Assembly: GCA_000967895.1 (NCBI GenBank) | Contig: FO203512.1 | Coordinates: 4,091,531-4,155,530 of the forward strand | Reading direction: 5' to 3' | Origin: Oleispira antarctica RB-8 | Lineage (GTDB): Bacteria > Pseudomonadota > Gammaproteobacteria > Pseudomonadales > Oceanobacteraceae | DNA: 64,000 nt | Shown here: one piece after another, positions 3,917 through 56,843 of the stretch | How positions within the stretch are numbered: the first letter of the stretch is position 1 | How the letters are laid out: every line of letters begins with the position of its first letter | Position numbers and translations under genes: made by a program | The notes under the pieces: model-generated | Database searches by the model: none | What the model was told of the DNA's origin: nothing | Seen by the model: only the letters and a program-made list of their open reading frames with translations

Positions 3917-6037
3917 TTAACGTGTGCTCAAAGTATCTTTAACCAAACGAGGAGTAATGAATATTAATAATTCGGCCTTACTCTCGGAATGCTCCGTACG
4001 GCGGAATAATACGCCAAGTAGAGGAATATCACCAAAGAATGGTGTCTTTGTAGTCGCATAAGTTTCTTCTGAACGGAATATACCACCCAAAACAATCGTT
4101 TCTCCATTCTCAACCAGCACCTGAGTTTCTAGTGCGTTAGTATCGATAGTCGGGCCTGCTGCGGTTACTTCACCGATAGAATCTTGATTGATTTTAAGGT
4201 CCATAATAATACGATCATCAGGGGTAATTTGTGGCGTCACCTCTAATCTTAATACAGCGGATTTAAACGAAATTGAAGTTGCACCACTTGAACTCGCTTC
4301 TTGGTAAGGAATCTCTGTACCCGATTGTATACTAGCAGTCTGGCCATCGGCAGTGATTACGCGAGGCTGAGACACAATTTCAGCATTACCATCTGTCTCT
4401 ACCGCAGAAAGTTCAAGGTCTAATAGATAGTCAAACGTCGAGATACCGACCGCTAATGAAGAAGCACCCACATCACTCACACCCAAGTCAACAACATAGG
4501 CATCGGGAAAAGTAATACTACCCGGATCATCACCGTTCGCTCGATCAATTAATATCTGATTGGCTTCACTTAACGTCGTCTGGCTAGCACCAAATTTCAC
4601 AAAGCTATCATCAGTTGCATTCATACCGCCACCACCCCAACGGATACCTAGCTTTTCACCTACGCTAGTATTGGCAATAACGATACGCGCTTCAATTAAA
4701 ACTTGGCGAACAGGAATATCCAACAAAGCAATCGCTTCGCGGATTTTGTCCAAATTACCACCCGTATCTCTCATCAGTAGCGTATTAGTGCGTTCATCAA
4801 CAACAGCGGTACCACGCAGTGACATCAAGCCACTTTCTGATGTCAACAACGAAGCAATATCTGTCGCCTTAGCATATCGCAGCTGCACATACTCAGACAG
4901 CAAAGGCGCTAGATCTTCAACTTGCTTAACCGCTTCTAGTTCAATTTTTTCACGAGCAGCAATTTCTTCTGCTGGAGCAACTAGCAATACATTACCCATT
5001 TGACGTTTCGCCAAGCCTTTCGTCTTCAGAACTAAATCTAATGCCTGATCCCATGGAACATTCTGCAAACGCAATGTAATGCCACCGTCAACAGTATCCG
5101 ACGCCACTAAATTCTGGCCTGTAAAATCAGCAATTAACTGAAGTACTGCTCGCACTTCAATATTTTGAAAGTTAAGAGACAGCTTCTCGCCACTATAAGG
5201 AAATTCAGATTGAGCTAATTTTTCTTTTTCTGCTTTCGTGATTGGTTTTACGTTAATCGCTAATACACCATCCGCTTGATACGCTAGATAATCATATTGA
5301 CCTTCTGGCTCAATATAAATAACCGTATTGGTTCCTTCCATATTGGCATCAATAAATTTAACCGGCGTAGCAAAATCAACCACATCCAAACGACGACGCA
5401 TATTTTCGGGTAGCACTGTATTTTCTAAAGTTACTATAATTTTTTTGCCTTGTTGCTGAACATTAACACCGGCTTTAGGATTACTTAATAAAATTTGAAC
5501 TTGTCCATCATTCTGATCACCACGACGAAAATCAACGTTCATAACAGATGACGTGGCAGAGGCAGAGGCAGAAATGGCATTACTAGAACGATTATCGACA
5601 TTGGCAAGCGCTTGATTCGGCTGCACATCTTGTGCATTAGTATCAACCGTTTTGCCCATCAATACGACCAAGCGATCATCTCGGGTTTGAACAGTATAAG
5701 GAACAAGTTGAGCTAAACTAACAATGACGCGAGCACGCTCATTAGCACTCACAACGGTCGCAGTCCTTGCGTTACCAAAACCAATCTTATGATATTTAGA
5801 GGCAAGTTTGCTATTAACACCCGGCAAATCCAATGAAATACGCGCGGGTTTTTCTATTGTATATCCCCCGGGTACTGGTGGTTGACCATCAAAGATCAAT
5901 TCCATCTGCGTCACATCCCCAGGCATTGCTGAGAATTTGATATCGACTAAATTTGAAGCCAAAGCTTGCGCACTGGCAATTGTTGCTAGCATCACAGCAA
6001 CAAATACCTGTGCTGCTTTATTAATACGGTGACTCAT
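3917..6037 (-). CDS. pilQ: Type IV pilus secretin PilQ
   Basis: Outer-membrane secretin pore through which the type IV pilus passes. The 706-residue preprotein has a signal peptide (about 1-27, ending SAQALA), two AMIN peptidoglycan-binding domains (about 30-125 and 165-265), an STN/N0 domain (about 286-355), an N1-type ring domain and the C-terminal secretin core with VLVENGETIVLGGIFR. No truncation is seen. It follows pilP by 3 bp and is the last pil gene of the pilMNOPQ operon. Confidence 0.96.
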   Translation of the reverse strand: MSHRINKAAQVFVAVMLATIASAQALASNLVDIKFSAMPGDVTQMELIFDGQPPVPGGYTIEKPARISLDLPGVNSKLASKYHKIGFGNARTATVVSANERARVIVSLAQLVPYTVQTRDDRLVVLMGKTVDTNAQDVQPNQALANVDNRSSNAISASASATSSVMNVDFRRGDQNDGQVQILLSNPKAGVNVQQQGKKIIVTLENTVLPENMRRRLDVVDFATPVKFIDANMEGTNTVIYIEPEGQYDYLAYQADGVLAINVKPITKAEKEKLAQSEFPYSGEKLSLNFQNIEVRAVLQLIADFTGQNLVASDTVDGGITLRLQNVPWDQALDLVLKTKGLAKRQMGNVLLVAPAEEIAAREKIELEAVKQVEDLAPLLSEYVQLRYAKATDIASLLTSESGLMSLRGTAVVDERTNTLLMRDTGGNLDKIREAIALLDIPVRQVLIEARIVIANTSVGEKLGIRWGGGGMNATDDSFVKFGASQTTLSEANQILIDRANGDDPGSITFPDAYVVDLGVSDVGASSLAVGISTFDYLLDLELSAVETDGNAEIVSQPRVITADGQTASIQSGTEIPYQEASSSGATSISFKSAVLRLEVTPQITPDDRIIMDLKINQDSIGEVTAAGPTIDTNALETQVLVENGETIVLGGIFRSEETYATTKTPFFGDIPLLGVLFRRTEHSESKAELLIFITPRLVKDTLSTR

Positions 6038-6040
6038 TTT

Positions 6041-6574
6041 TTATTCCTCTTCCACACCGGCTAAAACAAGTGAGCGTGGACGTTCAAGCCAACCACCTAC
6101 ACCGTTAGGTACAATTTCTATAATATCAATTCGTTGCTGCGATACGCGTATTACTTTGCCATGGTTTTGTCCCATGTAATAACCTTCTTTAATTTTATGA
6201 ATGCCACTATCTGGAACGGAAACAAGTGCCCAGAGCTGATCTTTTTCACGTTTGATAGTACCTACCATAGAAAAAGATCCAAAAGGGTACTGTTCCAACT
6301 GCTCTTTTGAGCGATTTAGGTCAGGCTGAATATCAGAATCCGGAGTGGTTTGCTTAATTACCTCATCCAAATTAATGGGTAAATCAAACGGCGACCGTAG
6401 GCCCGTCGCGCTATAACTAAATGCTTCATAAGGTTCAAAAACAGGCAGAGGCGCAATAACACCTCGCGGCTGACTCATAACCTCATCAACAAACTCTTTC
6501 AGGTCTGTTGTTCCAGTTGTCACACCACAAGCCGACAATAATGAGGCCAGTAATAACAAGGATAGTTTTTTCAT
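6041..6574 (-). CDS. pilP: Type IV pilus lipoprotein PilP
   Basis: Inner-membrane-anchored lipoprotein linking the PilN/PilO dimer to the secretin PilQ. I start at the ATG at 6574 (MKKLSLLLLASLLSAC) rather than the upstream ATG at 6589, because this gives a clean lipoprotein signal with lipobox LSAC (Cys16) and the ORF then begins just after the pilO stop. The C-terminal half (about 95-175) has the PilP beta-sandwich pattern (FSMVGTIKREKDQLWALV ... GYYMGQNHGKV). Confidence 0.93.
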   Translation of the reverse strand: MKKLSLLLLASLLSACGVTTGTTDLKEFVDEVMSQPRGVIAPLPVFEPYEAFSYSATGLRSPFDLPINLDEVIKQTTPDSDIQPDLNRSKEQLEQYPFGSFSMVGTIKREKDQLWALVSVPDSGIHKIKEGYYMGQNHGKVIRVSQQRIDIIEIVPNGVGGWLERPRSLVLAGVEEE

Positions 6575-6575
6575 T

Positions 6576-7205
6576 TTAATCTCCCTCATTATAACGGTAG
6601 GTTTTAGCCAGAATTTTTAGCGAAAGACTTCCACTATCCGTGCCTTTAGTTCTAATAGAAAAATCATGCAAGGTAACAATACGCGATAGCGATGCAACTG
6701 AGGATACGTAAGCGCCTAGCTCGTGATAATCCCCTTCCACCTCAATTTCAATCGGTAACTCATTATAAAACTCAGTACTAATTTGCTTTTTCGGTGAGAT
6801 CATTTTCAAATCTAAACCGTTATTTAACGCAGCTAAAGAAATGTCATCTATTAATCCCGGAACTTCACTATCTCTTGGCAACTGCTTCAAGATCGACTCA
6901 AAACTCTGCTCCATTTCAACCATCTGAGCTTTATACTCATTTAGGTTGGCCACCTGAAACGCTTTATTTTCAAAATCCTTTTTCAACTGAGTTTCTTGCT
7001 TAATTTCTCGTGTTAATTTCTCGCTCATGGGCTCAAGCATCATAAAATAACCACCTACTAAGATGGCAACGGCAATGATACTGCAAAAAACTATTTTACC
7101 TGCAATAGGCCACGAGCCCATATTCTCCCAATCAATATCATTAACATCAAATTCGTTAATTTGATCCAGATAAGGCTGCAGGTCGAACTTATTATTTTTC
7201 GCCAT
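6576..7205 (-). CDS. pilO: Type IV pilus alignment subcomplex protein PilO
   Basis: Inner-membrane protein that dimerises with PilN in the pilus alignment subcomplex. The 209-residue protein has a short cytoplasmic N-terminus, one membrane segment (about 34-54), a coiled coil (about 58-108) and a C-terminal ferredoxin-like domain with the family stretch SEVPGLIDDISLAALNNGL. The start codon overlaps the pilN stop by one base. Length is typical of the family. Confidence 0.94.
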   Translation of the reverse strand: MAKNNKFDLQPYLDQINEFDVNDIDWENMGSWPIAGKIVFCSIIAVAILVGGYFMMLEPMSEKLTREIKQETQLKKDFENKAFQVANLNEYKAQMVEMEQSFESILKQLPRDSEVPGLIDDISLAALNNGLDLKMISPKKQISTEFYNELPIEIEVEGDYHELGAYVSSVASLSRIVTLHDFSIRTKGTDSGSLSLKILAKTYRYNEGD

Positions 7206-7761
7206 TATTTATCCTCCTGCTTAGCATTTTTAGGATCAACCTGAATCATGGTTACTTCAAACGTATTGTAACCACCCTTCTGTGCCTTAACGTTTATTAA
7301 GTTAGGTGCGTCAAACCAATCTGATTCATCAAAGTTACGCATTAAAGCCGCCACTCGATTATTGGACTTAGCTCGTCCCTTAACCGTTACATGTGTGCCT
7401 TTAATATCTAGACTAGTGAAGTACAAATCATCGGGAATTGAGCGAGCGATCTCATCAAATAAACGCACAATAATCGGGCGATTACCCTGTAAATCTTGAA
7501 TCAGTTTCATTCGTTCAAGCAATTGCTCGCGCTTATCTCGCAACTGCTTAATCTCACTGATTTGCTCACTCAAGACAGACATTTCTTTTTGTACAAAAGC
7601 ATTACGGTGTTTTTGCGCGTGATATTGACCCTCAATGCCATCAGTCACAAACCAAACTAATGCCGCTGCCGCTATTGCGACCCCCACAACAATACTGATG
7701 AATTCTTGCTGGCGTTCCTTGCGTAACTCTTCACGCCAAGGGAGTAAATTAATCTTTGCCA

Positions 7762-7762
<1 letters not shown>
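7205..7762 (-). CDS. pilN: Type IV pilus protein PilN
   Basis: Bitopic inner-membrane partner of PilO. The N-terminal cytoplasmic peptide AKINLLPWREE is the conserved segment that inserts into PilM. A membrane helix follows (about 22-40), then a coiled coil and a periplasmic ferredoxin-like domain (about 95-175). It overlaps the pilM stop and pilO start by single bases, so the operon is tightly coupled. Confidence 0.95.
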
Positions 7763-8992
<1,230 letters not shown>

Positions 8993-18407: not shown

Positions 18408-20390
18408 ATGGATTGTATAATCATCAGCGAAGATGACATTTGGGCCCAACGGTTAGAAGCCTCACTATCCCGAGTCAACGTCAATTGTGGTCGTCACCAA
18501 AGTGATCATAGTAGCAAGAGTTATCCGACGACAGAAGATACGTTATATCTTGTGGATGGCGCAGGGCGCGAGCCCGATATTGCCGACTGCGGCAAACGAA
18601 TCGTGCTTTTTACTGATGAGCCCAGCGAGCAATCCGTACTGCAACTTCCCAGAACCCATGCTCAGCGCTGGCTCTTGAATCATTTAGGATTAGGTAATCA
18701 AGGCATCCCCCTAACATGGGCCGCGTCGGCAACAGAGGGGCAAATCATTGTTGACCAACAAGGATATATCCTAAACATCAATGACACTATGGCTGAGTGC
18801 CTTTCCAGCATAATTGAAAACTGGAACGGCAAGCAACTGCATCATATTTTTCCTGAACTTGTCAATAAAGCGCACCACTCACTCAAACGCCAACTCAATA
18901 AGTTATGCGAAAAAGGTCAGCCTTGCAGCGGCCAAGTATTGGCGGCAAAAAATAGTAATGGTCGCGCTCGCTACATAGAGGTGTGCGCGAGTAAGTTATT
19001 GGGTTCACGCATATTGCTAAACTGTCGTGATGTTACTCAACGTACCAGTAGTCATAATAGCATGCGGCAAAAAGCCCGTTTCGATGGATTAACGGGCTTG
19101 GCCAACCGGCAACTTTTAATGGATCGCTTACGCATGGCACTCGCTCGCAGCAAACGTTTTCAGCGGCAACTCGCCATTATGTACATCGACCTTGATCACT
19201 TTAAACCCATTAATGATACTTGGGGACATGCTGCCGGGGACGCTATATTATGCGAAGCAAGCCGCCGCATGAAAGAGACCGTGCGCGAGATTGATACCGT
19301 CGCGCGCCTGGGAGGGGATGAGTTCGTCATCGTCATTGAGGACCTAAAAGATCTTCGTGACGCGGGCATCATTGCAGAACACCTTCTCACCGCGTTAGGC
19401 GCTGCATTTCACTGGCAACAGCACGAGTTTTATATCGGTTGCAGCATTGGTATAGCTATTTCTGAAGATAGCCACGACGACGCTCACAAACTCATTGAGA
19501 AAGCCGACCTCGCACTCTATCGAGCCAAACACATGGGGCGACAACGGTTTGAATTCTGTACATCAGAACTCACAGCCCAAGCGCGCTATAAACTGGTTTT
19601 ACAAGAAGGCTTACAGCAAGCGTTAGACGATAAGCAGCTACAGCTCTATTACCAACCCATCGCGTCGACATCGACAGGAAAAGTTCAAGGGGCCGAAGCC
19701 CTACTACGTTGGATTCACCCTAAAGTTGGCATGGTACGACCCAGAGACTTCATCCCATTATTGGAGCAAACAGGTCTAATAATCCCCGTAGGCGAATGGG
19801 TTATAGAGCAGGCCTGCCAGCAATGGAGCCTCTGGAAACAACAAGGGCTATTAGAAGAAAAGGCACTATTAACACTCAATATTTCAACCTGCCAATTTAG
19901 CTCACAGCAGTTACTTAATTGCATTGGCAATATGATGATTAAGTTCGACATGCCCGCGAAGACCTTAGCCCTTGAAGTCAGTGAAGAGTTACTGAATACC
20001 AACCCAAAACACTTGAGCGAAACGTTCTCGCAGCTCAATCAAATGGGCGTCGACATTATTATTGATGATTTTGGCTTAGGAAGTACCTCCTTGCATTCAC
20101 TTTCTAAATATACTCTCAGCGCGATCAAGTTAGAAAAACCTTTACTCGCATCGCTCTCGAAAAGTAAAAACGGGAATTCTTTAAAGGCATTCTCTTTTCT
20201 CGCCCACAGCCTAAATGTGAACATGATCGCCGAAGGTATAGACGACAAAAATCAGCTTAGAACCCTTGCTGCGGCTAACATCGACAGCTATCAGGGATAC
20301 AGTTTATCTCCAGCCTTAGAGGCCGCTGAATTCAAGCAATTTATGTCATTACAGAATGAAAATGAAAATAAAGTGAAATTATTCTACTAA
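18408..20390 (+). CDS. PAS-GGDEF-EAL c-di-GMP protein
   Basis: Soluble 660-residue protein with an N-terminal segment of about 100 residues that I do not recognise, a PAS domain (about 108-220), a GGDEF domain (about 222-385) and an EAL domain (about 400-650). GGDEF is intact, with an RxxD inhibitory site (REID) five residues before it, so diguanylate cyclase activity is likely. EAL keeps EALLRW, the Asn of NIST, the Glu of LEVSEE, the DD of IDDFG, the Lys of IKLEK and the Glu of AEGID. However, TES, KID and YSSLSYL are replaced by SEE, KLE and STSLHSL, so phosphodiesterase activity may be weak. No membrane segment is seen. Confidence 0.88.
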   Translation: MDCIIISEDDIWAQRLEASLSRVNVNCGRHQSDHSSKSYPTTEDTLYLVDGAGREPDIADCGKRIVLFTDEPSEQSVLQLPRTHAQRWLLNHLGLGNQGIPLTWAASATEGQIIVDQQGYILNINDTMAECLSSIIENWNGKQLHHIFPELVNKAHHSLKRQLNKLCEKGQPCSGQVLAAKNSNGRARYIEVCASKLLGSRILLNCRDVTQRTSSHNSMRQKARFDGLTGLANRQLLMDRLRMALARSKRFQRQLAIMYIDLDHFKPINDTWGHAAGDAILCEASRRMKETVREIDTVARLGGDEFVIVIEDLKDLRDAGIIAEHLLTALGAAFHWQQHEFYIGCSIGIAISEDSHDDAHKLIEKADLALYRAKHMGRQRFEFCTSELTAQARYKLVLQEGLQQALDDKQLQLYYQPIASTSTGKVQGAEALLRWIHPKVGMVRPRDFIPLLEQTGLIIPVGEWVIEQACQQWSLWKQQGLLEEKALLTLNISTCQFSSQQLLNCIGNMMIKFDMPAKTLALEVSEELLNTNPKHLSETFSQLNQMGVDIIIDDFGLGSTSLHSLSKYTLSAIKLEKPLLASLSKSKNGNSLKAFSFLAHSLNVNMIAEGIDDKNQLRTLAAANIDSYQGYSLSPALEAAEFKQFMSLQNENENKVKLFY

Positions 20391-42785: not shown

Positions 42786-43622
42786 CTACTTCTCGAATGA
42801 AACATTATACTTTTTTAGAAATGCTCTTTCTTTTTCTCCTTTCATTGATAATCGCCCTTCATTCCAGATTCTTATAAGTTTCTGCCTTCTTTCGACAGGA
42901 ATTTTTTGTGAAAAAATAGGCATTTCTACTAATTTAGACTCTAAACCGGGGCGCACAATTTTAAGATGATCGTTCAAGTTATGCTGATTTAAAGCATGCT
43001 GAAGAACAAGCTCGTTATCCGCATATAAGTCGACTCGGCTGTCTTTAATCATACTGAATACTCGATCAATTACATCACCCTCACCTGCGATGACTTCCAC
43101 AAAAATTGAATTTTTTGGATCATCGATATGCTTTTGATAATCGACACTCATTGAGCTGTAATCCCAGCCTGGGCCCGTTGCGATACGCTTGTGTTTTATC
43201 GATTGAATGCCACTATAACGCCACGAGTCATTTTTTCTAACAACAAAAGCGGTTGTGTATGCGAATGTTTCTTCACTGGCATAGACAAAGCCTCTTTCTG
43301 AATTCTTTGAAAATAGGTATTCAGGCAACATATCGCAAACACCTTTCACTACCATATCCAGACCTCTGGCCAGAGGTACTTCATAATATTCCAGCACATA
43401 CCCTTGTGAGCTGTATATCTGATCCAACATATCAATAACAACACCTCGTGCAGAGTCCCCCGCTGATGGAAATATTGTCATAGGAGCCCATTGGTCGTAA
43501 CACACTTTTAATGTCTCCGCATAGCTCACCTTCGTCATACTATTACCTACTAAAAAAATAAGAATAAGCATACATAAAGATGAATATGTTCTTTCAACTT
43601 TTAATTTTCTATTTTTCAACAC
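42786..43622 (-). CDS. Periplasmic solute-binding protein (SBP_bac_3), coupled to a DGC
   Basis: A 278-residue family 3 binding-like protein: LKVCYDQWAPMTIFPSAG, GVVIDMLDQIYSSQGYVLEY, VPLARGLDMVVKGVCDMLPE, RIATGPGWDY. The GTG at 43622 has AAAGG eight bases upstream and gives a signal peptide ending KVSYA; an ATG at 43649 is also in frame but has no ribosome binding site. With the GTG start it overlaps the end of the diguanylate cyclase gene by 14 bp. No ABC transporter genes are adjacent, so a sensory role, presenting a ligand to the cyclase, is a reasonable inference. Confidence 0.8.
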   Translation of the reverse strand: MLKNRKLKVERTYSSLCMLILIFLVGNSMTKVSYAETLKVCYDQWAPMTIFPSAGDSARGVVIDMLDQIYSSQGYVLEYYEVPLARGLDMVVKGVCDMLPEYLFSKNSERGFVYASEETFAYTTAFVVRKNDSWRYSGIQSIKHKRIATGPGWDYSSMSVDYQKHIDDPKNSIFVEVIAGEGDVIDRVFSMIKDSRVDLYADNELVLQHALNQHNLNDHLKIVRPGLESKLVEMPIFSQKIPVERRQKLIRIWNEGRLSMKGEKERAFLKKYNVSFEK

Positions 43623-44889
43623 GGTTGCGGCCTTTATCTTTCGCACCATAAAGTTTCAAATCAGCACGTTTAAATAGCTGGTCGATTGAAAGGTCTGTTG
43701 ATTCCGAGGTATCAATACCAAGACTCACCGTATAAGTTACTTTTTTCCCATCAATATCTAATATTGAATTGCTAATAGCTTGCCTGATTTTGTCAGCAAG
43801 CTGAAAAGCACCCTCTATTGCAGTATCAGGCAGAAATATTGCGAATTCCTCTCCGCCGACCCTACCGACTAAATCAGATTTTCTTAAGAAGGTTCGAATG
43901 GTATGAGTAAAATGAGTCAAGACCTGGTCTCCGACGAAATGACCATAGGTATCGTTAATTTTTTTAAAGTGATCCAAATCCATCAAAATAAAAGAAGCGC
44001 ATGATTTTTGGCGCTGAGAAAGAACAAGTAAGTGTTGTGCCGTTTGAAAAAAACTGCCTCTATTTAGCGCCCCCGTTAAAGAATCTTTTGCTGCGAGATC
44101 TTTCAATTTTTCATTTGATATTTGCAATGCTTCAGTACGTTTTGCAACAGCATCTTCTAACCATTTTCGTTTGGCTTGCTCATTTTCTAGTGACTTTTTT
44201 TGGTCAGCCTCAATGGCAGATAACATATTATTCATATGTTCTTGAAGTTGACTGAGCTCGTTATTCTCAATATTTGAAAGATTAATCCGCTTACTCATAT
44301 CTTGACTCAATTGAACGTCATTTACTTGCGACATGAGTTCCTTTAAAGGGATGGCTAAATAACGGTCGAAAGCCCAAATGAACAAACCAAACAAAATAGA
44401 TATTTTTATAATTGCCGTGATTGCAATTAAAGAAAAACCAAACAATACTCGATCTAATACCACCTCTGACGATGAATAAAGTGTGAGCGACCCCAGAAAT
44501 ATTTTTTCTTCATGCAACGTCCAATATAAATCTGTTTGTGTCTCAAAGACTGACAAAGGAATCGAATCCGGAGCATAAGATCGCTTAGAAATTCTATTTT
44601 GGGCATGCTTATCTACAATATCCACGCCTTCAATCGTGGGCATTTTGACCAGCCCGGTAATAAGCACATCAAGCTGATTCTGATTGTACTGCCATAAACT
44701 GTTAGAAATAGGGCCACGGACAGTTTCTTCCAACTGCCTCAGTTCTTTTAAAATTGAACTCTGTGTTTTCAAATATTCGGTCAAAAACTGCATACCTGTA
44801 ATTAAACACGTTACGCTCAAGTAGATAGACAGAATTACGCGCATCATTTTTTGGGATAAATTATTTGGACGAAGAAACCTTACAAACAT
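43609..44889 (-). CDS. Membrane-bound diguanylate cyclase (HAMP-GGDEF)
   Basis: 426-residue inner-membrane protein: helix at about 13-33, periplasmic sensor (about 34-150), helix at about 155-180, HAMP (about 178-232), a short coiled coil, then GGDEF (about 262-424). The catalytic motif is GGEEF in RVGGEEFAIF, and RKSD five residues earlier is an RxxD inhibitory site, so cyclase activity and product inhibition are expected. The downstream binding protein overlaps it and may supply its signal. Confidence 0.9.
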   Translation of the reverse strand: MFVRFLRPNNLSQKMMRVILSIYLSVTCLITGMQFLTEYLKTQSSILKELRQLEETVRGPISNSLWQYNQNQLDVLITGLVKMPTIEGVDIVDKHAQNRISKRSYAPDSIPLSVFETQTDLYWTLHEEKIFLGSLTLYSSSEVVLDRVLFGFSLIAITAIIKISILFGLFIWAFDRYLAIPLKELMSQVNDVQLSQDMSKRINLSNIENNELSQLQEHMNNMLSAIEADQKKSLENEQAKRKWLEDAVAKRTEALQISNEKLKDLAAKDSLTGALNRGSFFQTAQHLLVLSQRQKSCASFILMDLDHFKKINDTYGHFVGDQVLTHFTHTIRTFLRKSDLVGRVGGEEFAIFLPDTAIEGAFQLADKIRQAISNSILDIDGKKVTYTVSLGIDTSESTDLSIDQLFKRADLKLYGAKDKGRNRVEK

Positions 44890-48571: not shown

Positions 48572-50683
48572 TTATAAAGCCGGTTTTTCACCTTCTATCC
48601 AATAACTAAATAATCGATCAAGAGATTTATTTCTCTTTTTCATCTTGATCCAATTCCTTAAATATAACTCAAACAACTGATCATTTTTATTAATTGGAAA
48701 TGCCATCGTTAATGCAGGCAGTAAAGGTTTCGGGCTGACGACCGTATAACTTGGATTCAGCAAAGTCCAAGCAGAAGCCGCAGGAGCACCTAATAACATA
48801 GCATCTATATGCTTAAACTCTTCTTTGAAGAACAGCCTTGGCGTTGATATTTCCCACGCTTTACCCTTTGTAAAATAAGCCTTAACGGCTTTTTTATAGA
48901 ATACTTTTTCTGGAATACCAATAATCAAATCTTTTCGATCCCTAATATTTTCCCAGTCAACAAACTCTGCTCTACGCTTATCTTTAACAATAAAGGCGAC
49001 ATGCTGATCGCTATAGGGCCAAGACAGTAAAAATTCTTTCATATTGTCGGGAATCACAGGAACACCCGAAGTGATGTCTAAATAGCCTGATGCCAATAAA
49101 GGGCCTGCTTCCTTACGAAATATTTTAACAAATTCAATACCAACCCCAAGATCTCCAGCCAGTTGATTCATTATTTCAATATCAAACCCAACCAACTTCC
49201 CTTTACTATTATGAAATGAGTACGGTAAATCATCTCTAAAATAGCCAACTCTCAAAAAGCCTCTCTGCTTTACCCGATCAAGCACACTTTTAAACGGCTG
49301 GACATTGGCACTGCTAGCACTGGGTTTTTCTAAGTACGTGGTAGGAATACTTTCATATAAAAAGTCGCGATTAATAAACTTACTATAGCCTTCATATTGG
49401 TAACTTATCGATTGAAACGTATGCTTCACTGCAACAAAGGCGGCAATGCAAACAACGGGAATAATCAACGCGTTGCGGGCAAATTGTTGCCATTTAAAGG
49501 TGAAGCCTTTCACCATGCTAGTGGCCACAAGGAGTGGTAAACACACTGCAAATATAACCGATAATAATGCGGCAATGCGTCCCACAATTAAATTCTCTGC
49601 AACCAGAAAGAAATCAAACATCGAACCAGAAACGTTGAACAGCTCCAATAAATTAGGCACCGCAATAATACTTGTGCCAAATAACTGCGGAACACCAACG
49701 ACAATGAGGGTCACATAATCGCTTAACGAAATATAAGCACCCGAAAACCAAGCCGCGAATAGGGTGAATAAAAGAGCTAATAGCTTGCCTCCAACGGGCA
49801 AGCTAAAAGTAATAGGAACAATAATACTTGGGACTTTATCAATGTCTTTATTCGTCGAATGCAGTTGCGCAATTAGCACCTTAGTTTTTTCTACAATAAC
49901 GGGAAGTACAATGAAGAAACTGCCGGTAGCAAATGCGGTAACCATAGCCTCACGCGAGGCTTTCATTATTTGTCGATAACCAAAAGGCGTAATAATCGCC
50001 ACCATTGTAGGTAATACAATAAACGCGAGTAGTAAAACCAGTACTGCTGACGTTACAACATAAACCAGAAGGCCATCTAAATCAGAGGGATTTACGGTAG
50101 CCGCCGCACGCAGACCAATACAAAAAATACCGACAGGCGCAAAACGCATTACCATAACACTGACATTCGCAACAGCCGTTTGTAAATTGCCCAGCAGCAA
50201 CAATGCATGTTTCTTTCTGTGCACACTCATAAGTCCGATCCCAATGAATATGCTGAATGTGACAATAGAGGGAATCAAGGCATTAGCAAAAGCGTTGAAT
50301 GGATTGGCAGGAATGAATAAATCCACCAGATCAAATTCAGTACTTACCTTTATTGTTTCTACGCTATAAAACTCTGCGGTCGTCCAATCAGGAAAAGCAA
50401 TCGGTGCCAAAAGAATGAAAAATAGAACGGTCGAAATTAATAGAAACAAAATAAGCAAGCTTTGCTTAAAAGTGCTGCTTAACCCAGTAGCCGATAATCC
50501 ACCGATTCCAACAATCAACGATAGCGATATATAAGGAAGAGCGGTCATTTGTAATAACATCACAAATGCATTTGCGATCGCATCCACCCCCATAAATACA
50601 GTTGACGTATAGGCACCAATTGCAAGTCCGGCAACCATCGCGAGAAGAATACGAATAAAGGAGGGTATTTTTTTGAACAGCAT
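48572..50683 (-). CDS. Dicarboxylate/amino acid:cation symporter fused to SBP domain
   Basis: 703-residue protein from the ATG at 50683, which has AGGA six bases upstream (longer frames to 50782 lack support). The first part (about 1-430) is a DAACS/GltP-type sodium-coupled symporter with multiple helices and the conserved hairpins (TAFATGSFFIVLP, SLPVGGKLLALLFTLF). The C-terminal part (about 470-700) is a periplasmic family 3 solute-binding domain (RVKQRGFLRVGYFRDDLPYS, LVGFDIEIMNQLAGDL). The binding domain is probably tethered in the periplasm to deliver substrate to the carrier. A 15-bp palindrome lies just upstream. Confidence 0.85.
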   Translation of the reverse strand: MLFKKIPSFIRILLAMVAGLAIGAYTSTVFMGVDAIANAFVMLLQMTALPYISLSLIVGIGGLSATGLSSTFKQSLLILFLLISTVLFFILLAPIAFPDWTTAEFYSVETIKVSTEFDLVDLFIPANPFNAFANALIPSIVTFSIFIGIGLMSVHRKKHALLLLGNLQTAVANVSVMVMRFAPVGIFCIGLRAAATVNPSDLDGLLVYVVTSAVLVLLLAFIVLPTMVAIITPFGYRQIMKASREAMVTAFATGSFFIVLPVIVEKTKVLIAQLHSTNKDIDKVPSIIVPITFSLPVGGKLLALLFTLFAAWFSGAYISLSDYVTLIVVGVPQLFGTSIIAVPNLLELFNVSGSMFDFFLVAENLIVGRIAALLSVIFAVCLPLLVATSMVKGFTFKWQQFARNALIIPVVCIAAFVAVKHTFQSISYQYEGYSKFINRDFLYESIPTTYLEKPSASSANVQPFKSVLDRVKQRGFLRVGYFRDDLPYSFHNSKGKLVGFDIEIMNQLAGDLGVGIEFVKIFRKEAGPLLASGYLDITSGVPVIPDNMKEFLLSWPYSDQHVAFIVKDKRRAEFVDWENIRDRKDLIIGIPEKVFYKKAVKAYFTKGKAWEISTPRLFFKEEFKHIDAMLLGAPAASAWTLLNPSYTVVSPKPLLPALTMAFPINKNDQLFELYLRNWIKMKKRNKSLDRLFSYWIEGEKPAL

Positions 50684-51140
50684 ATAAATCCTGAAATTAC
50701 TCATTAAGTACTTATGCAGTAAGTACTTAATGAGCCAATAGTATATTGTTAATGTAATCAGTATAGCGAGATGTATACGCATACTTTGATACGATGTTTA
50801 TCTTAGCGATTTGTCTCACGTCGAATCGCATTAAATGAATGAGTCGTTGTACCCTCACTTACAACGCTATGCAACACTAAATGAATTTTTGAGAAGCGTG
50901 CTTCGTTAATGATAGCCTAACCCAAAGCTCCTCAATGCTATAAACACAGCCGTGTCTGAATGTTCTCTTTAGAAAAGCGTAACTACACCGCCAAAACTCA
51001 CCCTTAGTCACTACATTATTAAGAAATTTTCTAATAATAAGCATTCATATTCGAACCAACGAGAAACATTGGGCAAATCAATCAAGACACTGGCTTTGTG
51101 CTATATTGTATAACTATCTATCTCTTTTATTGGCTATTCA
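50684..51140. other. 457-bp gap between the symporter fusion and the NMT1-EAL gene
   Basis: Divergent promoter region containing the palindrome at 50700-50734. An extension of the symporter frame runs to 50782 but has no family-like sequence. No RNA gene recognised. Confidence 0.4.
50700..50734. promoter_or_regulatory. 15-bp palindrome upstream of the symporter fusion
   Basis: Perfect arms CTCATTAAGTACTTA (50700-50714) and complement (50720-50734) with a 5-nt centre TGCAG. It begins 17 bp upstream of the chosen start codon, so it is either an operator or a hairpin in the mRNA leader close to the ribosome binding site. Confidence 0.6.
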
Positions 51141-53489
51141 GTGATCCAAATAAAACGTCTCTGTCAGTTATTGCTATTGTCACTTTGCTCTTCTTGGGTG
51201 ATAGCTGAAGATATTTCGATCCACTTAAAGTGGTACCACAAATTTCAATTTGCGGGCTATTACGCTGCCCAACAGCAAGGCTATTTCACCGATGAAGGCT
51301 ATGACGTGAGCCTTATTGAAGGCGGCCCTCATACCAATCACTTACATCAGTTAATCAACGGGTCCAGCGAATATGCTGTTTTAGGCAGCGAGGCAATCAT
51401 CTCCTTGGCCCTTGGGTCTCCCGTTATTATAGTCGCCTCTATTTTCCAGCATGCTCCCGAAATAGTGATGACACTAGAATCGAGCAAAGCAGAATCTATC
51501 AGTGCATTAAAAGATAAACCTTTGATGCTAGCGAATAACTACATATCAGGCCAAATAGCGGCCATGTTATTAAAAAACGGCATAACATCTAAAGATTATC
51601 AAAAATCGAGTTATGACGGCGATGTTAATAGATTGGTCAACGGTTCGGTTTTTGCTATGTATGGCTATATTAGTAACGAGCCATATCAGTTACAGCAACT
51701 TGGACATAACGTCGACATATTTAGGCCACAAGACTACGGCATCAATTTCTATGGTGACAACCTCGCAACCACTCAGAATGAACTGGATAATCACCCTAAA
51801 CGCGTAGCCGCCATGCGTCGTGCTGTTATTCGAGGGTGGAATTACGCACTAGAGCACCCAGAGGCAATGATTGCATACATTCTAAGCATGCCGACTAAAA
51901 ACCCCAACCCCTACAATCTGAGCCATCAGCAATACGAAGCAAAGATTACTGCTGAACTAATTGACACCTATAACGTGCCTTTAGGATCATCAAGCCCTGA
52001 CCGCTGGGCAGCGATGTTTGATACCTTCAATGAAACCTCTGGTGGCCAAGCAATCTTTAATCCTAAGTCTATTTATAATGAATTTCATCAGGATCGTACT
52101 TGGCTAACGTACATTCTTATTCCTGCAATACTGGCCTTAATTATCATTTCCTCGATGTATGCATGGAATCGAGCATTACAGAATAAGTTAAATACGGCTA
52201 TTAGCAGCTTAGAAAAAGCCGCTTTTGAAGACGTATTAACAGGCCTAAAAAACCGCTCATCGATGATGCTTTATATCGAACAGTGCCGAATCAAAAAAAG
52301 AAACAACCTATATATTGTGCTAATCGACATAGCCGGCCTGCAAAAAATTAATAAAGACCAGGGATTACAAAGAGCGGATCTATTAATTCAGCAAGTGGCT
52401 AATTTATTATCCGATTGCGCATTAAGATACAGCCATACTTATAGTTTGTATGGCGGTAAGTTTGCCATTATTGCCAGCGCAGAACGCTTCAGCGAACTCG
52501 AGCGAAAAATTAATATTCTGCTAGACAAAATAACTCAAGTGAATGATTGCATCGCACTGCGATCAGGGGCCGTAAAACTGGACTTCAGCTTAGACAATTC
52601 AACCCTAACAACACGAGCAGAATTAACACTGCAGCACTCGAAAGAAATCAATTCAAGCACATTGTCTTCCTTCAATTTATTGATTTTAGAAAAAGCGAGT
52701 CGCCACGAGGCCTTGATCATTGAGGTTACAAAAGCCATCAAGAAACAAGAGTTTGTGCCTTACTATCAACCAAAAATAAATTATCTGAGCGGCGAAATTC
52801 AAGGCTTAGAAGCTCTCATCCGCTGGGACCATCCAGATAAAGGGATTTTATTACCGGGTACTTTTTTACCCGTAGTTGAACATAACCCTGTTGTAATGAT
52901 GGAATTAGAAAAAGCCATTCTGGAAGCTATTTTGTCTGAAGCTAATGAACTTATCAGCTATTACAAAATAAATAGCGGGTTCAGATTATCGATTAATCTT
53001 TCATCAATTCACTTTAATCAACCCTCATTAGTATCTGATTTACTAACAAGCTGTCATCGTTTTTCTGTTGATCCGCAATACCTAGAATTTGAATTAACAG
53101 AAAGCTCTATGCTAGAAGATCTTAATTTAGCCATAGAAATTAGTCATGACTTACAAAAAGCGGGATTTCATGTTGCACTTGATGATTTTGGTACCGGCTA
53201 TTCCTCTCTTTCTTACATTCAGAATTTACCCGTCAATGTGATTAAGCTGGACTATTCATTCGTTAAAAAAATACCACAAGATATACGCTCAGGCTTCGTT
53301 GTAGAGCATATTATTTCGCTGGCACATAAGTTAGGATTAATCATCGTTGCGGAAGGAGTCGAAGAAGCGGATCAACTGGATTACCTTGGTAATTTAAACG
53401 TTGATATGATTCAAGGCTTTTATTTTTATAAACCTATGCCTCTAGAACAGGCTTGTAAACTGAATCTAGTGGTTAATAATTACAAATAA
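51141..53489 (+). CDS. NMT1/THI5-like sensor fused to degenerate GGDEF and EAL
   Basis: 782-residue protein with a GTG start. A signal peptide (1-22) precedes an NMT1/THI5-like binding domain (about 24-310), the fold that binds thiamine-precursor-like or taurine-like ligands: SIHLKWYHKFQFAGYYAAQQ, then QGYFTDEGYDVSLIEGGP. A helix follows (about 325-345), then a GGDEF domain whose catalytic motif reads YGGKFAI and so is inactive, and an EAL domain (about 535-775) with EALIRW, NLSSIHF, ELTES, DDFGTGYSSLSY, IKLDYSF and AEGVEEAD intact. Expected to be a ligand-controlled c-di-GMP phosphodiesterase in the inner membrane. Confidence 0.88.
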   Translation: MIQIKRLCQLLLLSLCSSWVIAEDISIHLKWYHKFQFAGYYAAQQQGYFTDEGYDVSLIEGGPHTNHLHQLINGSSEYAVLGSEAIISLALGSPVIIVASIFQHAPEIVMTLESSKAESISALKDKPLMLANNYISGQIAAMLLKNGITSKDYQKSSYDGDVNRLVNGSVFAMYGYISNEPYQLQQLGHNVDIFRPQDYGINFYGDNLATTQNELDNHPKRVAAMRRAVIRGWNYALEHPEAMIAYILSMPTKNPNPYNLSHQQYEAKITAELIDTYNVPLGSSSPDRWAAMFDTFNETSGGQAIFNPKSIYNEFHQDRTWLTYILIPAILALIIISSMYAWNRALQNKLNTAISSLEKAAFEDVLTGLKNRSSMMLYIEQCRIKKRNNLYIVLIDIAGLQKINKDQGLQRADLLIQQVANLLSDCALRYSHTYSLYGGKFAIIASAERFSELERKINILLDKITQVNDCIALRSGAVKLDFSLDNSTLTTRAELTLQHSKEINSSTLSSFNLLILEKASRHEALIIEVTKAIKKQEFVPYYQPKINYLSGEIQGLEALIRWDHPDKGILLPGTFLPVVEHNPVVMMELEKAILEAILSEANELISYYKINSGFRLSINLSSIHFNQPSLVSDLLTSCHRFSVDPQYLEFELTESSMLEDLNLAIEISHDLQKAGFHVALDDFGTGYSSLSYIQNLPVNVIKLDYSFVKKIPQDIRSGFVVEHIISLAHKLGLIIVAEGVEEADQLDYLGNLNVDMIQGFYFYKPMPLEQACKLNLVVNNYK

Positions 53490-53501
53490 TGTTGAGCGTA
53501 C

Positions 53502-55211
53502 ATGTCAGACTTTTCTTCTATAAGCCAAGACTTCAAAAATTTCGTTTTATCCAATCCAGATACCAGTATGGGACTTGGAAATAATAGTCATCTCGATCAA
53601 CTTGCAGACCCCAGCCTAGAACAGTTAAAAAATGATACTGCGCAAGCAAAAACTCTACTCGTTGTCATTGAAAACTGCTCGACGGATGATTTTAATCAAC
53701 AACTTGATATCGACCTAATGGCTCGTTATTTAAAGCAACAGATATTCTTTGCCGAACTTGAACAAGATGGTCAACCACAACGATGCCGAAAACCCGGTGG
53801 TGTTGATGGCATCAGTGAAGGTATTTTTCAGCTTTTTGTGAACGACGAAAGAAGCCCAGAAGCACGCTTAGATAATATTCTATCGCGATTACAACAAGCC
53901 CCAGCCTATTTAAAAGTCGAAGCCGATGTTATTACTCAACCCATTCAGCGCTGGCGTGATATTGAAGTTGAGCAAGGTGAAGGCTTACCCGATTTATTTG
54001 CCACTATTTATAATTGGGCAGAGAAAACTGAATACCCCAAAAGCTCTGAACTTCAGCAAGCAATAATCGCATGTAATAGCGCTCTAGGCCTTTATCTTAA
54101 TGATTTAAAAAGACGACAATGTTTAATCAATTTTGATATTGGTGAAGACAAAGTCAATGAACTGCTCGCGCTACGTAACATCAACCTTTCCCCTGTGGAG
54201 TTGGTTAAGATGGCACGCGACTTTATGGCGAATACCCAAACGCTATTAACCGGGTTAAATAAACGTCTTTGTAAGAAATATGATCTGGATATAACCACCA
54301 GCAACGAAGATTTGCATGAATACCTCAATGACAAATTTTCCGCTAAGATAAAAAATGGCGAATTAAACTCGGTATTGGATTATTACTCAGATCAAATAAA
54401 ATCCATCAACGAATTCATTGAACAACGCCATCTTTTTTCGATACCTGCGCAGCAAGAAATTCGCTTATTACAAACCCCAAGTTTCTTGGAACCTGTGATT
54501 CCTGCAGGTGCAATGTGGCCACCACTTGCGCTTCGTCCTGGTAAAAAAACAAGCTTAGTATATCTCACACTGAAGGAAGATCAGCTAGCGGAACATACTG
54601 AGTTGGGTATTCCGGTAATGATGATTCATGAAGGTATTCCTGGCCATCATCTACAGTTTGCAACCGCCGCACAGCATCCTTCTTTTATTCGTCGTATTTT
54701 TTCAGCCAATGAACATGCGGAAGGTTGGACGACAATGCTAGAAGATTACATGCTGGATGTTGGCTACATCAGTGAAGATCTTGTAGATGAAGTACGTTTT
54801 ATCGCCAAGCGTGAAATGTCTCGCCTCGTAGCCCGCGTCGGTATCGACTTATATTTTATGACGGGTGAACGTGATTACTTAGACGTCGGCTTAGATCTTG
54901 GTTTCAAAGAGAATGGTTATAGCGACGACGTATTTGTAAACGCTGCCAAGCTTTTGAAAAAAGCGACAGGCTTTACAGATGGCCGCGTACAAGCAGAATT
55001 GAACTGGTATAGCAGCGAGCAAAGCTATCCTCTCAGCTACCTCACAGGCAACCGTTTGGTATGGCAATTGAAGCAAGATATTCAAGCCGCCAATAAAAAA
55101 GACCTCGGCTCGCTTGCCTTAGATCAAGCCTTTCATAAAGTGTATTTAGAATCAGGCTGCATGCCAGTAGAAAGTTTACGCACCGTGTATGAGCATGAAG
55201 GGTTTTTATAA
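53502..55211 (+). CDS. DUF885 family protein (zinc-peptidase-like)
   Basis: 569-residue protein of the DUF885 family. The motif MIHEGIPGHHLQFA, with the HExxxxH-like H-E-x-x-x-G-H-H arrangement, and a downstream ANEHAEGWTTMLEDYML are the family hallmarks and resemble metallopeptidase sites. No signal peptide is seen. It lies 12 bp after the NMT1-EAL gene, so co-transcription is likely, but a functional link is not evident. Confidence 0.83.
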   Translation: MSDFSSISQDFKNFVLSNPDTSMGLGNNSHLDQLADPSLEQLKNDTAQAKTLLVVIENCSTDDFNQQLDIDLMARYLKQQIFFAELEQDGQPQRCRKPGGVDGISEGIFQLFVNDERSPEARLDNILSRLQQAPAYLKVEADVITQPIQRWRDIEVEQGEGLPDLFATIYNWAEKTEYPKSSELQQAIIACNSALGLYLNDLKRRQCLINFDIGEDKVNELLALRNINLSPVELVKMARDFMANTQTLLTGLNKRLCKKYDLDITTSNEDLHEYLNDKFSAKIKNGELNSVLDYYSDQIKSINEFIEQRHLFSIPAQQEIRLLQTPSFLEPVIPAGAMWPPLALRPGKKTSLVYLTLKEDQLAEHTELGIPVMMIHEGIPGHHLQFATAAQHPSFIRRIFSANEHAEGWTTMLEDYMLDVGYISEDLVDEVRFIAKREMSRLVARVGIDLYFMTGERDYLDVGLDLGFKENGYSDDVFVNAAKLLKKATGFTDGRVQAELNWYSSEQSYPLSYLTGNRLVWQLKQDIQAANKKDLGSLALDQAFHKVYLESGCMPVESLRTVYEHEGFL

Positions 55212-55307
55212 TTGATAGCAAAACCCATACTATTGTCTTAATATTCAATTGCGTATGATTATCATTTAGATTATTATTCATCTGAATTTTAACTAGATGA
55301 TGATCAA

Positions 55308-56843
55308 ATGTTCAATAATAAACTGCACAATTTAAGCTTAGGCATAATAGCCACAAGCTCTCTGCTGTTATCTGCTTGTGGTGGTGAAAGTTCTACTAAC
55401 TCTACTAATGCCATCGATTCCATAGCGCCGACGGTTAGCAACGTATTTCCTAACAACAATCATGGTATCCATTCAAAGAAAGTTATCGTTACTGGCCAAG
55501 CTACCGATGAAACAGCATTAGAATCTGTTGTTATCACCTATGGTCAGAACGCGATTACCGCTGAGTTGAACGACGGTCGATTCACCGCAGTGATAGAAGC
55601 AACTCCGGGGGAAAATACCTACACGGTGGTAGCAACGGATACTGCAAAAAATGAAGTGACTCTTGAAGAAACTTTCTATTTTGGTGCTCTTGCAAGTGCT
55701 GGCGGTGCTCATTCTGGCATCATACACAATGAACGTATCTATGCCTGGGGACGAAATAATAAAGGCCAAGCAGGTATTGGAGCCATTACAAAAATCAGCG
55801 ATGATCCAGCAACCGCAGAAGCAACCCACCCTATCACGCCGACCCTAATATCAGCGCCATTTGATGACGTAGACCTAACCGAAACCAAATTTGTTTCGTT
55901 AGCATTCAATCAGAATGTATCGACGGCATTGGATGTTAATGGGCATGTCTGGAGTTGGGGTGATGGCGACAATGGCCAGCTAGGCTTAGGCATTGCGGAC
56001 GATGATATTGTTGATGACACAGACTATACCAGCCCACAAAAAATTGCAGGCCTATCCAATATTGTAGCGATCAGCCGTGGTTACTATCATTGTTTGCTAT
56101 TAAAATCAGATGGTAGCGTATTAGCCTTTGGTAGGAATGCTCAAGGACAACTCGGTGACGGTACAAATGATAATAAAGACACTCCTGTTGCCGTAAACGG
56201 GCTGACAAACATAGTGCAAGTTTCTGCGGCTATTGGCTCTTACGCTCTTGATCAAGAAGGACGTTTATGGGCTTGGGGAAGCAACAACTATGCTCAGCTA
56301 GCGAATGGGACAACAGACAGTGATGCTCATAATATTCCAACTCAAGTTGCTATTGACGAACCTATTGTCAGCATTGCGAGTGGCAAAGGCCACACATTAG
56401 CATTAACAGAGTCAGGGAAAGTTTATGCTTGGGGCCTCAACGCTAGTAGCCAAATCGGCATGAGAACCAGTGAAACATGGGATAATTACATTCTAACCCC
56501 ACTATTACTCCCTTGGTTTGATGATGCGATTGCTGTTTGGGCCAATGGCAACCAAAGTTTTGCTCAACGCAGTGATGGAAAGATTTATCCTTGGGGGCAA
56601 AACATGTTTGGCACACTAGGAATAGAAGCTGATGACGACGTCGAGCAACCTAATAGCCCAATACTGGGTTTGGAAAACGTAACCGACTTAGGCAACGGCG
56701 CTCTACATACTTTAGCTATTCGAAATGATGGTTCGGTTTTCTCCTGGGGCTGGAGCTTTGAAGGTTCTTTAGGTGGCGGAGAAAGTACTATTCATAGATG
56801 GACATATCGCCTTCCCTTATTGGTATCAATCCCAGAAAGCTAA
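55308..56843 (+). CDS. RCC1-repeat lipoprotein with Ig-like domain
   Basis: 511-residue lipoprotein. The signal ends LLLSACGG. A bacterial Ig-like domain (about 38-125, APTVSNVFPNNNHGIHSKKV) is followed by seven RCC1-type repeats, each with a W or F-G-x-N/D motif such as AWGRNNKGQAGIG, SWGDGDNGQLGLG, AFGRNAQGQLGDG, AWGSNNYAQLANG and SWGWSFEGSLGGG, forming a beta-propeller. Likely a surface or periplasmic binding protein; partner unknown. Confidence 0.85.
   Translation: MFNNKLHNLSLGIIATSSLLLSACGGESSTNSTNAIDSIAPTVSNVFPNNNHGIHSKKVIVTGQATDETALESVVITYGQNAITAELNDGRFTAVIEATPGENTYTVVATDTAKNEVTLEETFYFGALASAGGAHSGIIHNERIYAWGRNNKGQAGIGAITKISDDPATAEATHPITPTLISAPFDDVDLTETKFVSLAFNQNVSTALDVNGHVWSWGDGDNGQLGLGIADDDIVDDTDYTSPQKIAGLSNIVAISRGYYHCLLLKSDGSVLAFGRNAQGQLGDGTNDNKDTPVAVNGLTNIVQVSAAIGSYALDQEGRLWAWGSNNYAQLANGTTDSDAHNIPTQVAIDEPIVSIASGKGHTLALTESGKVYAWGLNASSQIGMRTSETWDNYILTPLLLPWFDDAIAVWANGNQSFAQRSDGKIYPWGQNMFGTLGIEADDDVEQPNSPILGLENVTDLGNGALHTLAIRNDGSVFSWGWSFEGSLGGGESTIHRWTYRLPLLVSIPES

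Follow-up and report, generated by a model that had tools for sequence, protein, structure and literature searches.

In signaling systems of the NspS-MbaA type, a substrate-binding protein (SBP) is paired with a receptor, and it is this separate binding protein that controls an enzyme of cyclic di-GMP (c-di-GMP) metabolism. The class of SBP and receptor pairs is set out in passages of PMC9602780. In this report, we describe a gene from Oleispira antarctica RB-8, found in a window of 64,000 nucleotides (contig FO203512.1, positions 4,091,531 to 4,155,530 of the forward strand; assembly GCA_000967895.1), whose product also appears to place a c-di-GMP enzyme under a binding protein, with the SBP present as its own domain. 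An NMT1/THI5-like sensor is followed by a degenerate GGDEF domain and an EAL domain. No paper on NMT1/THI5-like sensors fused to GGDEF, EAL, or kinase outputs was found in the literature searched, and no ligand for the fused sensor family was found there. The architecture is real and common. As a whole, the best explanation, to which we give a somewhat better than even chance, is that of a one-component receptor that would bind a pyrimidine-like ring compound and whose EAL domain would hydrolyze c-di-GMP.

The receptor is encoded by a single open reading frame (ORF) with a GTG start and no internal stop, as seen in the ORF list and translation; frame 1 of the reverse strand over the same interval is crowded with stops. 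The coordinates of the gene and of its parts are collected in Table 1. The N-terminus has a hydrophobic core followed by VIA-ED, with a helix predicted at residues 2-16 in the secondary structure of the model, and cleavage of a signal peptide would probably occur between the A and the E. Pfam assigns the NMT1 domain (PF09084) with an E value of 4.5e-42 and 144.8 bits against a curated cut-off of 20.5; the GGDEF (1.5e-11) and EAL (1.1e-63) matches are also above their curated cut-offs. The full-length model has a mean predicted local distance difference test score (pLDDT) of 80.2 and a predicted TM-score (pTM) of 0.43, a value at which the relative placement of the domains is unreliable. One continuous helix joins the periplasmic and cytoplasmic parts, and the protein is probably a one-component receptor of the inner membrane with a periplasmic sensor. 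Full-length orthologues are present in four of the five other genomes of the genus (81, 74, 66, and 60% identity), and because of this the architecture is not a product of chance. The fifth genome (G005, 71% complete) gave no receptor orthologue among its scored matches. A sequence-only reading of this DNA had proposed a protein in which a degenerate GGDEF domain, with YGGKF in place of the motif, and an intact EAL domain are attached to an NMT1/THI5-like fold; the Pfam matches, the model, and the residues described below bear this out.

The GG(D/E)EF active-site motif is absent from the receptor and from its four aligned orthologues; the receptor and two of the orthologues have YGGKF at this position, and the other two have YAGKF. 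Because of this replacement, the domain is not expected to act as a diguanylate cyclase. D396, N404, and D413, which we take to be the positions of metal and guanine contacts in PleD, are retained, so that nucleotide binding may be possible, and the degenerate domain may act as a regulatory, dimerization, or GTP-binding domain. The EAL domain contains E557, R561, N619, E651, E654, D681, D682, K702, E738, E741, and Q758. These residues are invariant in six of six aligned sequences (the five genus members and a distant homologue from genome G069). They are also present without exception in 11 sensor-GGDEF-EAL proteins, which were picked for having an EAL domain. Their spacing agrees with what we assume to be the catalytic set of RocR, and they suggest that the domain is a c-di-GMP phosphodiesterase. 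By sequence, the nearest solved relatives of the cytoplasmic half are 4rnh (a "Motility regulator", presumably MorA), 5m3c, and MucR. GGDEF-EAL phosphodiesterases of the MorA, MucR, and DosP types are alike in this half of the protein and in the EAL residues, whereas the receptor has a different sensor and has lost its GGDEF motif.

Degenerate GGDEF domains are also found in LapD and FimX, and the receptor might instead be a c-di-GMP-binding effector of that kind, which signals by protein contacts rather than by hydrolysis. The NCBIfam model for LapD does match the receptor, but weakly, scoring 113.5 bits where its cut-off is 1020. However, all of the EAL catalytic residues that were checked are present and do not vary among orthologues, and the best matches are to the "Motility regulator" 4rnh, to a "Diguanylate cyclase", and to the MucR phosphodiesterase. 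We regard an effector role as quite improbable.

The sensor domain was modeled with AlphaFold using 46 sequences (pLDDT 90.4), and the model was compared with known structures by Foldseek and by VIA (Z scores). The best PDB match is ThiY (3ix1), titled as the binding protein for N-formyl-4-amino-5-aminomethyl-2-methylpyrimidine (FAMP), with a Foldseek value of 1.2e-23, a VIA Z score of 32.4, and a root-mean-square deviation of 2.6 over 295 aligned residues at 20% identity. A thiamin-bound SBP (4nmy) is second at Z 30.1, followed by Thi5 (26.9), SsuA (23.3), PqqT (about 23), bicarbonate and nitrate proteins (21.1-22.6), and TauA (21.5). The order by sequence profile is the same at the top, with values of 2e-23, 1.7e-20, and 2.7e-11 for 3ix1, 4nmy, and THI5, respectively. 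ThiY shares its fold with the receptor over the whole domain, as well as the positions W31, N179-E180, Y199-G200, and Y204, and one alignment also pairs a tyrosine with Y176. Unlike the receptor, ThiY is a stand-alone transport protein and lacks the K30, Q36, F37, G39, D206, and W233 of the sensors; in the receptor the sensor is part of a fusion with c-di-GMP domains, and neither transporter genes nor a thiamine pyrophosphate (TPP) riboswitch adjoin its gene. A thiamine-uptake protein as such is ruled out by the same two absences at the locus. THI5, the hydroxymethylpyrimidine (HMP) phosphate synthase, belongs to the same superfamily and has the same fold. Its Lys62 and His66, presumably active-site residues (H66G appears in a PDB title), align with L81 and E84, and for this reason the chemistry of the THI5 enzyme is not expected in the receptor.

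The fused-sensor architecture is ordinary in databases. Species genomes were scanned with two conserved peptides, which gave at least 590 pattern matches and at least 559 confirmed stretches that encode a relative of the sensor; 80 loci were kept for further work. By their titles, the 80 come from Gamma-, Beta-, Zeta-, and other Proteobacteria, Desulfobacteria, Verrucomicrobia, and Bacteroidetes, with Holophagaceae, Petrotoga, Thermodesulfovibrio, and others among them. When 369 genomes were drawn evenly from the class, 43 proved to contain a match at 1e-20, and by our own count 34 of the 61 matches listed from that draw lie in frames of at least 450 residues. A plasmid of Arcobacter cloacae carries a sensor gene of 2964 bp whose annotation says only "ABC transporter substrate-binding protein"; the next gene encodes a response regulator. 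Phage records gave two weak partial matches. The outputs were tallied in 73 C-terminal parts, namely those of the receptor and of 72 of the 80 loci; two loci were dropped since the motif was not in one frame (L058 and L112) and six since fewer than 120 residues lay behind the sensor (L044, L063, L094, L097, L107, and L114). GGDEF was found in 43 of these parts, HATPase_c in 27, and EAL in 18. An extra SBP_bac_3 domain stands behind the NMT1 domain in 19 of the 73 proteins, which are possibly tandem sensors of two SBP kinds.

We use the name QFAG sensor clade for the fused NMT1 signal receptors. All 88 sensors from outside the genus have W31, Q36, F37, A38, G39, Y41, Q103, Y176, D206, W233, E266, and R288, and the invariance of W31, F37, and G39 is partly due to the selection, in which the motif demands these three residues; the sample consists of the fused NMT1 proteins that carry the motif. 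The receptor itself has W31, Q36-G39, Y41, Q103, Y176, D206, W233, and E266 together with a fused cytoplasmic output. One sensor alignment used 45 of the 80 loci, with L097 left out for a stop codon. A pocket not conserved among orthologues had been named in the sequence-only reading as one of two findings that would overturn its proposal, the other being an inactive EAL domain, whose catalytic residues are intact. In the alignments, the cleft-loop residues are conserved among orthologues, and the genus differs from the wider family at positions 28, 164, 171, and 209.

Sensors and stand-alone SBPs were compared in two FastTree phylogenies, both of which were midpoint-rooted and constructed without TauA, SsuA, or NrtA. 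The first had 110 sequences, with the second sensor of the host, a GGDEF protein, present twice (L001 and L169). The second had 112 sequences, of which 94 were sensors (two pairs more than 95% identical, the host GGDEF sensor entered once), and included the aligned parts of 3ix1, 4nmy, and yeast THI5; these three chains and one ThiY-like SBP (L176, labeled by eye) represent the thiamine proteins. The sensors form one clade in both trees, with support of 0.887 and 0.874, respectively, a monophyly that holds for the motif-selected type. The sister of this clade is the SBP L173 (0.99 and 0.986), whose operon encodes a cyanuric acid amidohydrolase (456.8 bits for the NCBIfam equivalog, which has a cut-off of 360, and also Pfam). 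In the first tree the next node (0.636) adds the SBPs L165, L166, L167, and L174 and an SBP from Tistrella (L187). A dihydropyrimidinase is encoded beside L165, L166, and L174 (587.7-604.7 bits, where 393.25 is the cut-off), and the neighbor of L167 is assigned to the same enzyme because it is 78% identical to the one beside L166; L174 also stands beside PreA and L165 beside a cytosine deaminase. These four and L173, the ring-operon SBPs, all have K30, W31, Q36-F37-A38-G39, N179, E180, D206, and W233. They differ from the sensors in being ABC uptake proteins and in the absence, from all five, of H33 and H104. From these residues and trees we infer that the sensors may descend from an SBP that bound a flat pyrimidine-like ring, with the link to L173 as the one that is well supported. 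A plasmid SBP beside a pyrimidine-utilization (rut) cluster (L185) was not counted, as the genes downstream of it are similar to those found with an SBP from Roseibium (L184) that has no rut cluster.

The nearness to ThiY raises the alternative that a thiamine vitamer (HMP, FAMP, or thiamin) is what the sensor binds, so that the receptor would report on vitamin B1 status. The two nearest structures, by fold and by sequence, bind FAMP and thiamin, respectively; 3ix1 has the W, N-E, and Y of the sensors at 31, 179-180, and 199, and 4nmy has Q-H at Q103-H104. For HMP and FAMP, passages of PMC10881298 give dissolved concentrations in coastal sea water of 9.9-27.3 pM and 16-112 pM, respectively. 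However, K30, Q36, F37, D206, and W233, which are common to the receptor, the five ring-operon SBPs, and L187, are absent from 3ix1, 4nmy, yeast THI5, and L176, and in the second tree these four thiamine proteins fall outside the group of sensors plus L173 (0.817). An Rfam scan of positions 50500-55400 gave no match, and hence there is no TPP riboswitch at the receptor locus; the two TPP riboswitches of the host genome lie elsewhere. One of them precedes an ORF read by eye as ThiC, which would allow the host to produce HMP itself. In our judgment, a thiamine vitamer is an unlikely ligand.

A wider alternative is that the ligand is unrelated to pyrimidines, since the superfamily fold binds many chemistries; a sulfonate, nitrate or bicarbonate, an aromatic compound, or a compound of the methionine cycle might be sensed. 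SsuA, PqqT, NrtA, CmpA, and TauA share the fold. A TauD/TfdA-family gene lies near L187, other plasmid SBPs adjoin varied catabolic genes, and mtnB-like genes are found downstream of the sensor in six related loci (L053, L057, L074, L077, L105, and L108), five of which also have mtnD- and mtnC-like genes. Four of these six loci are titled Methylococcales or Methylobacter and two only proteobacterium; the comparison with libraries covered the methionine-salvage genes of L053, and mtnC was named by eye. A gene of the homocysteine S-methyltransferase family also stands beside the distant homologue from G069. On the other side, the SsuA, nitrate, and TauA structures lie 9-11 Z units below ThiY (Z 20-23 for the group, against 32), and the methionine neighbors occur in just 6 of the 80 loci, which seem to be one related group. 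We consider a ligand from outside the pyrimidines possible but rather doubtful.

Several observations weigh against a pyrimidine-like ligand. When the PDB chains are included, the grouping of the dihydropyrimidinase SBPs with the sensors loses its support, and the next node, at 0.186, also holds L187 and five SBPs whose gene context is different or unclear. The branches in the trees are long. The SBP with the smallest mean tree distance to the sensors is L187 (3.11 and 3.02), ahead of L173 or L167, and the genes around L187 (an aldolase, the TauD/TfdA dioxygenase, and an ammonium transporter) give no hint of pyrimidines. Y176, E266, and R288 are missing in four of the five ring-operon SBPs, whereas L173 has all three. 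Within the genus, the domain deviates from the consensus of the sensors, with H28 for Q, R, H, or K164 for D, F171 for D, and A or V209 for F, and the nearness of the fold to ThiY could reflect ancestry only. No common metabolic gene adjoins the sensors among 539 neighbor ORFs from the 80 loci, where the most frequent families, one a signaling protein and one mtnB-like, occur in only six loci. One neighbor does speak for pyrimidines: directly upstream of the sensor in Hydrogenovibrio sp. SC-1 (L106) is a member of the cytidine/deoxycytidylate deaminase family (dCMP_cyt_deam_1), with a partial copy upstream in Methylotuvimicrobium (L078). However, the L106 deaminase has no NCBIfam name at 1e-20 that would indicate its substrate. 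The host genome has no dihydropyrimidinase above the cut-off, and the ligand would therefore be a cue, not food by that route.

The sequence-only reading had predicted a pyrimidine, taurine-like, or nitrate-like ligand. Of these, a pyrimidine-type ring agrees best with the fold, the sister SBP, and the shared residues, while taurine- and nitrate-like ligands are weakened by fold scores for TauA, SsuA, and NrtA well below that of ThiY, with the dioxygenase gene near L187 as a remaining hint. The hypothesis is thereby shifted to a pyrimidine-like ring first. We hold this ligand class only tentatively, at a little under an even chance, and have lowered our estimate slightly because the tree with the PDB chains drops the dihydropyrimidinase grouping (0.636 to 0.186).

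In the mechanism that we propose, a type-II SBP (Venus-flytrap) domain of a sensor-specific clade of the NMT1/THI5 superfamily would bind a small ligand in the periplasm, most likely a pyrimidine-like ring compound. The ligand would close the flytrap, and a twist or shift would run down the membrane helix and the signaling helix (residues 320-362) and change the activity of the EAL dimer. The GGDEF domain would make no c-di-GMP, and the EAL domain would hydrolyze it. Regulation probably occurs through the dimer, and it is moderately probable that the ligand activates rather than inhibits the phosphodiesterase. A fall in c-di-GMP might then promote motility or dispersal, as the sequence-only reading had predicted.

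Table 1. Coordinates in the 64,000-nucleotide window of the receptor gene, its parts, and the gene that follows it.
Feature	Residues	Position	Strand	Basis or remark
CDS, NMT1-like sensor / degenerate GGDEF / EAL protein	782 aa	51141..53489	+	
Predicted signal peptide	~1-22	51141..51206	+	read from sequence
Periplasmic NMT1/THI5-like ligand-binding domain	~23-318 (Pfam match 35-242)	51207..52094	+	Pfam and structure comparison
Unbroken predicted helix: membrane span (~321-343) and signaling helix	320-362	52098..52226	+	model; span read from sequence
Degenerate GGDEF domain	362-477	52224..52571	+	Pfam
YGGKF replacing GGDEF	437-441	52449..52463	+	alignment, residue read-out
Predicted EAL phosphodiesterase domain, catalytic residues intact	529-765	52725..53435	+	Pfam, alignments
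DUF885 protein		53502..55211	+	start 12 nt behind receptor stop

The neighbors of the receptor gene are an SDF-SBP_bac_3 fusion, a LysR gene, and a DUF885 gene, with no ABC permease or ATPase and no thiamine regulation. The DUF885 gene is directly downstream in three of the four same-genus orthologue loci, while the fourth locus (L036) has a 68% partial match at a distance of about 4 kb; the DUF885 gene is possibly co-transcribed with the receptor gene. Its product has the metallopeptidase-like motif HEGIPGHH and, in three same-genus genomes, is more conserved (82-85%) than the receptor (61-81%). The fusion gene (48572-50782, reverse strand) is a single ORF of 736 residues in which a sodium:dicarboxylate symporter (SDF) carries a C-terminal SBP_bac_3 domain, a transporter with its own binding protein. 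It is the divergent neighbor of the receptor gene in the host, G001, and G004. In G003 about 5.6 kb separate the two genes, and at the L036 locus no copy of the fusion gene was found. Neither the DUF885 gene nor the fusion gene names the ligand. No tandem repeats were found in 50500-55400, and the promoter and terminator scans were not above shuffled sequences (14 against a mean of 14.2, and 0 against 3.8, respectively).

The host genome (4,406,383 bases, single contig) has 17 EAL matches, all but one of which are nearly full length. Two other c-di-GMP proteins are encoded in the window, a GGDEF-EAL protein of 660 residues with an intact LGGDEF and the EAL motif DDFGLG (18408-20390, forward strand) and a CHASE5-like/GGDEF protein with an intact GGEEF, the CHASE5 match being just under its cut-off (43609-44889, reverse strand). 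A second sensor of the same clade, 34% identical to that of the receptor, is encoded at 2513571-2515571 of the genome (L169:5572-7572), where it is fused to PAS and to an intact GGDEF domain (YGGEEF). At about 3066750-3069500 (L168), a gene for a stand-alone NMT1-like SBP (5749-6759) lies 8 nt upstream of a gene for a membrane PAS-GGDEF protein with the motif intact (6768-8495), a probable separate SBP and receptor pair; this SBP was rejected as a close relative of the sensors by its mean tree distance of 6.14. Passages of PMC7318663 on the O. antarctica proteome, which do not concern the receptor, report that chemotaxis and motility proteins are more abundant at 4 °C.

It is conceivable, though we think it unlikely, that there is one very widespread, unnamed family of receptor domains, derived from SBPs that import pyrimidines and triazine-diones, which senses nucleobases of the uracil or cytosine type and feeds c-di-GMP and phosphorelays across many phyla. 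The NMT1-EAL and NMT1-PAS-GGDEF proteins of the host, whose outputs are opposite, would then be a push-pull pair that reads related ligands. Hundreds of bacterial signal proteins carry this sensor domain. The tie to the SBP of a ring-opening operon leads to a short list of ligands that could de-orphan the sensor family, for which a compact phosphodiesterase with orthologues is a handy test case.

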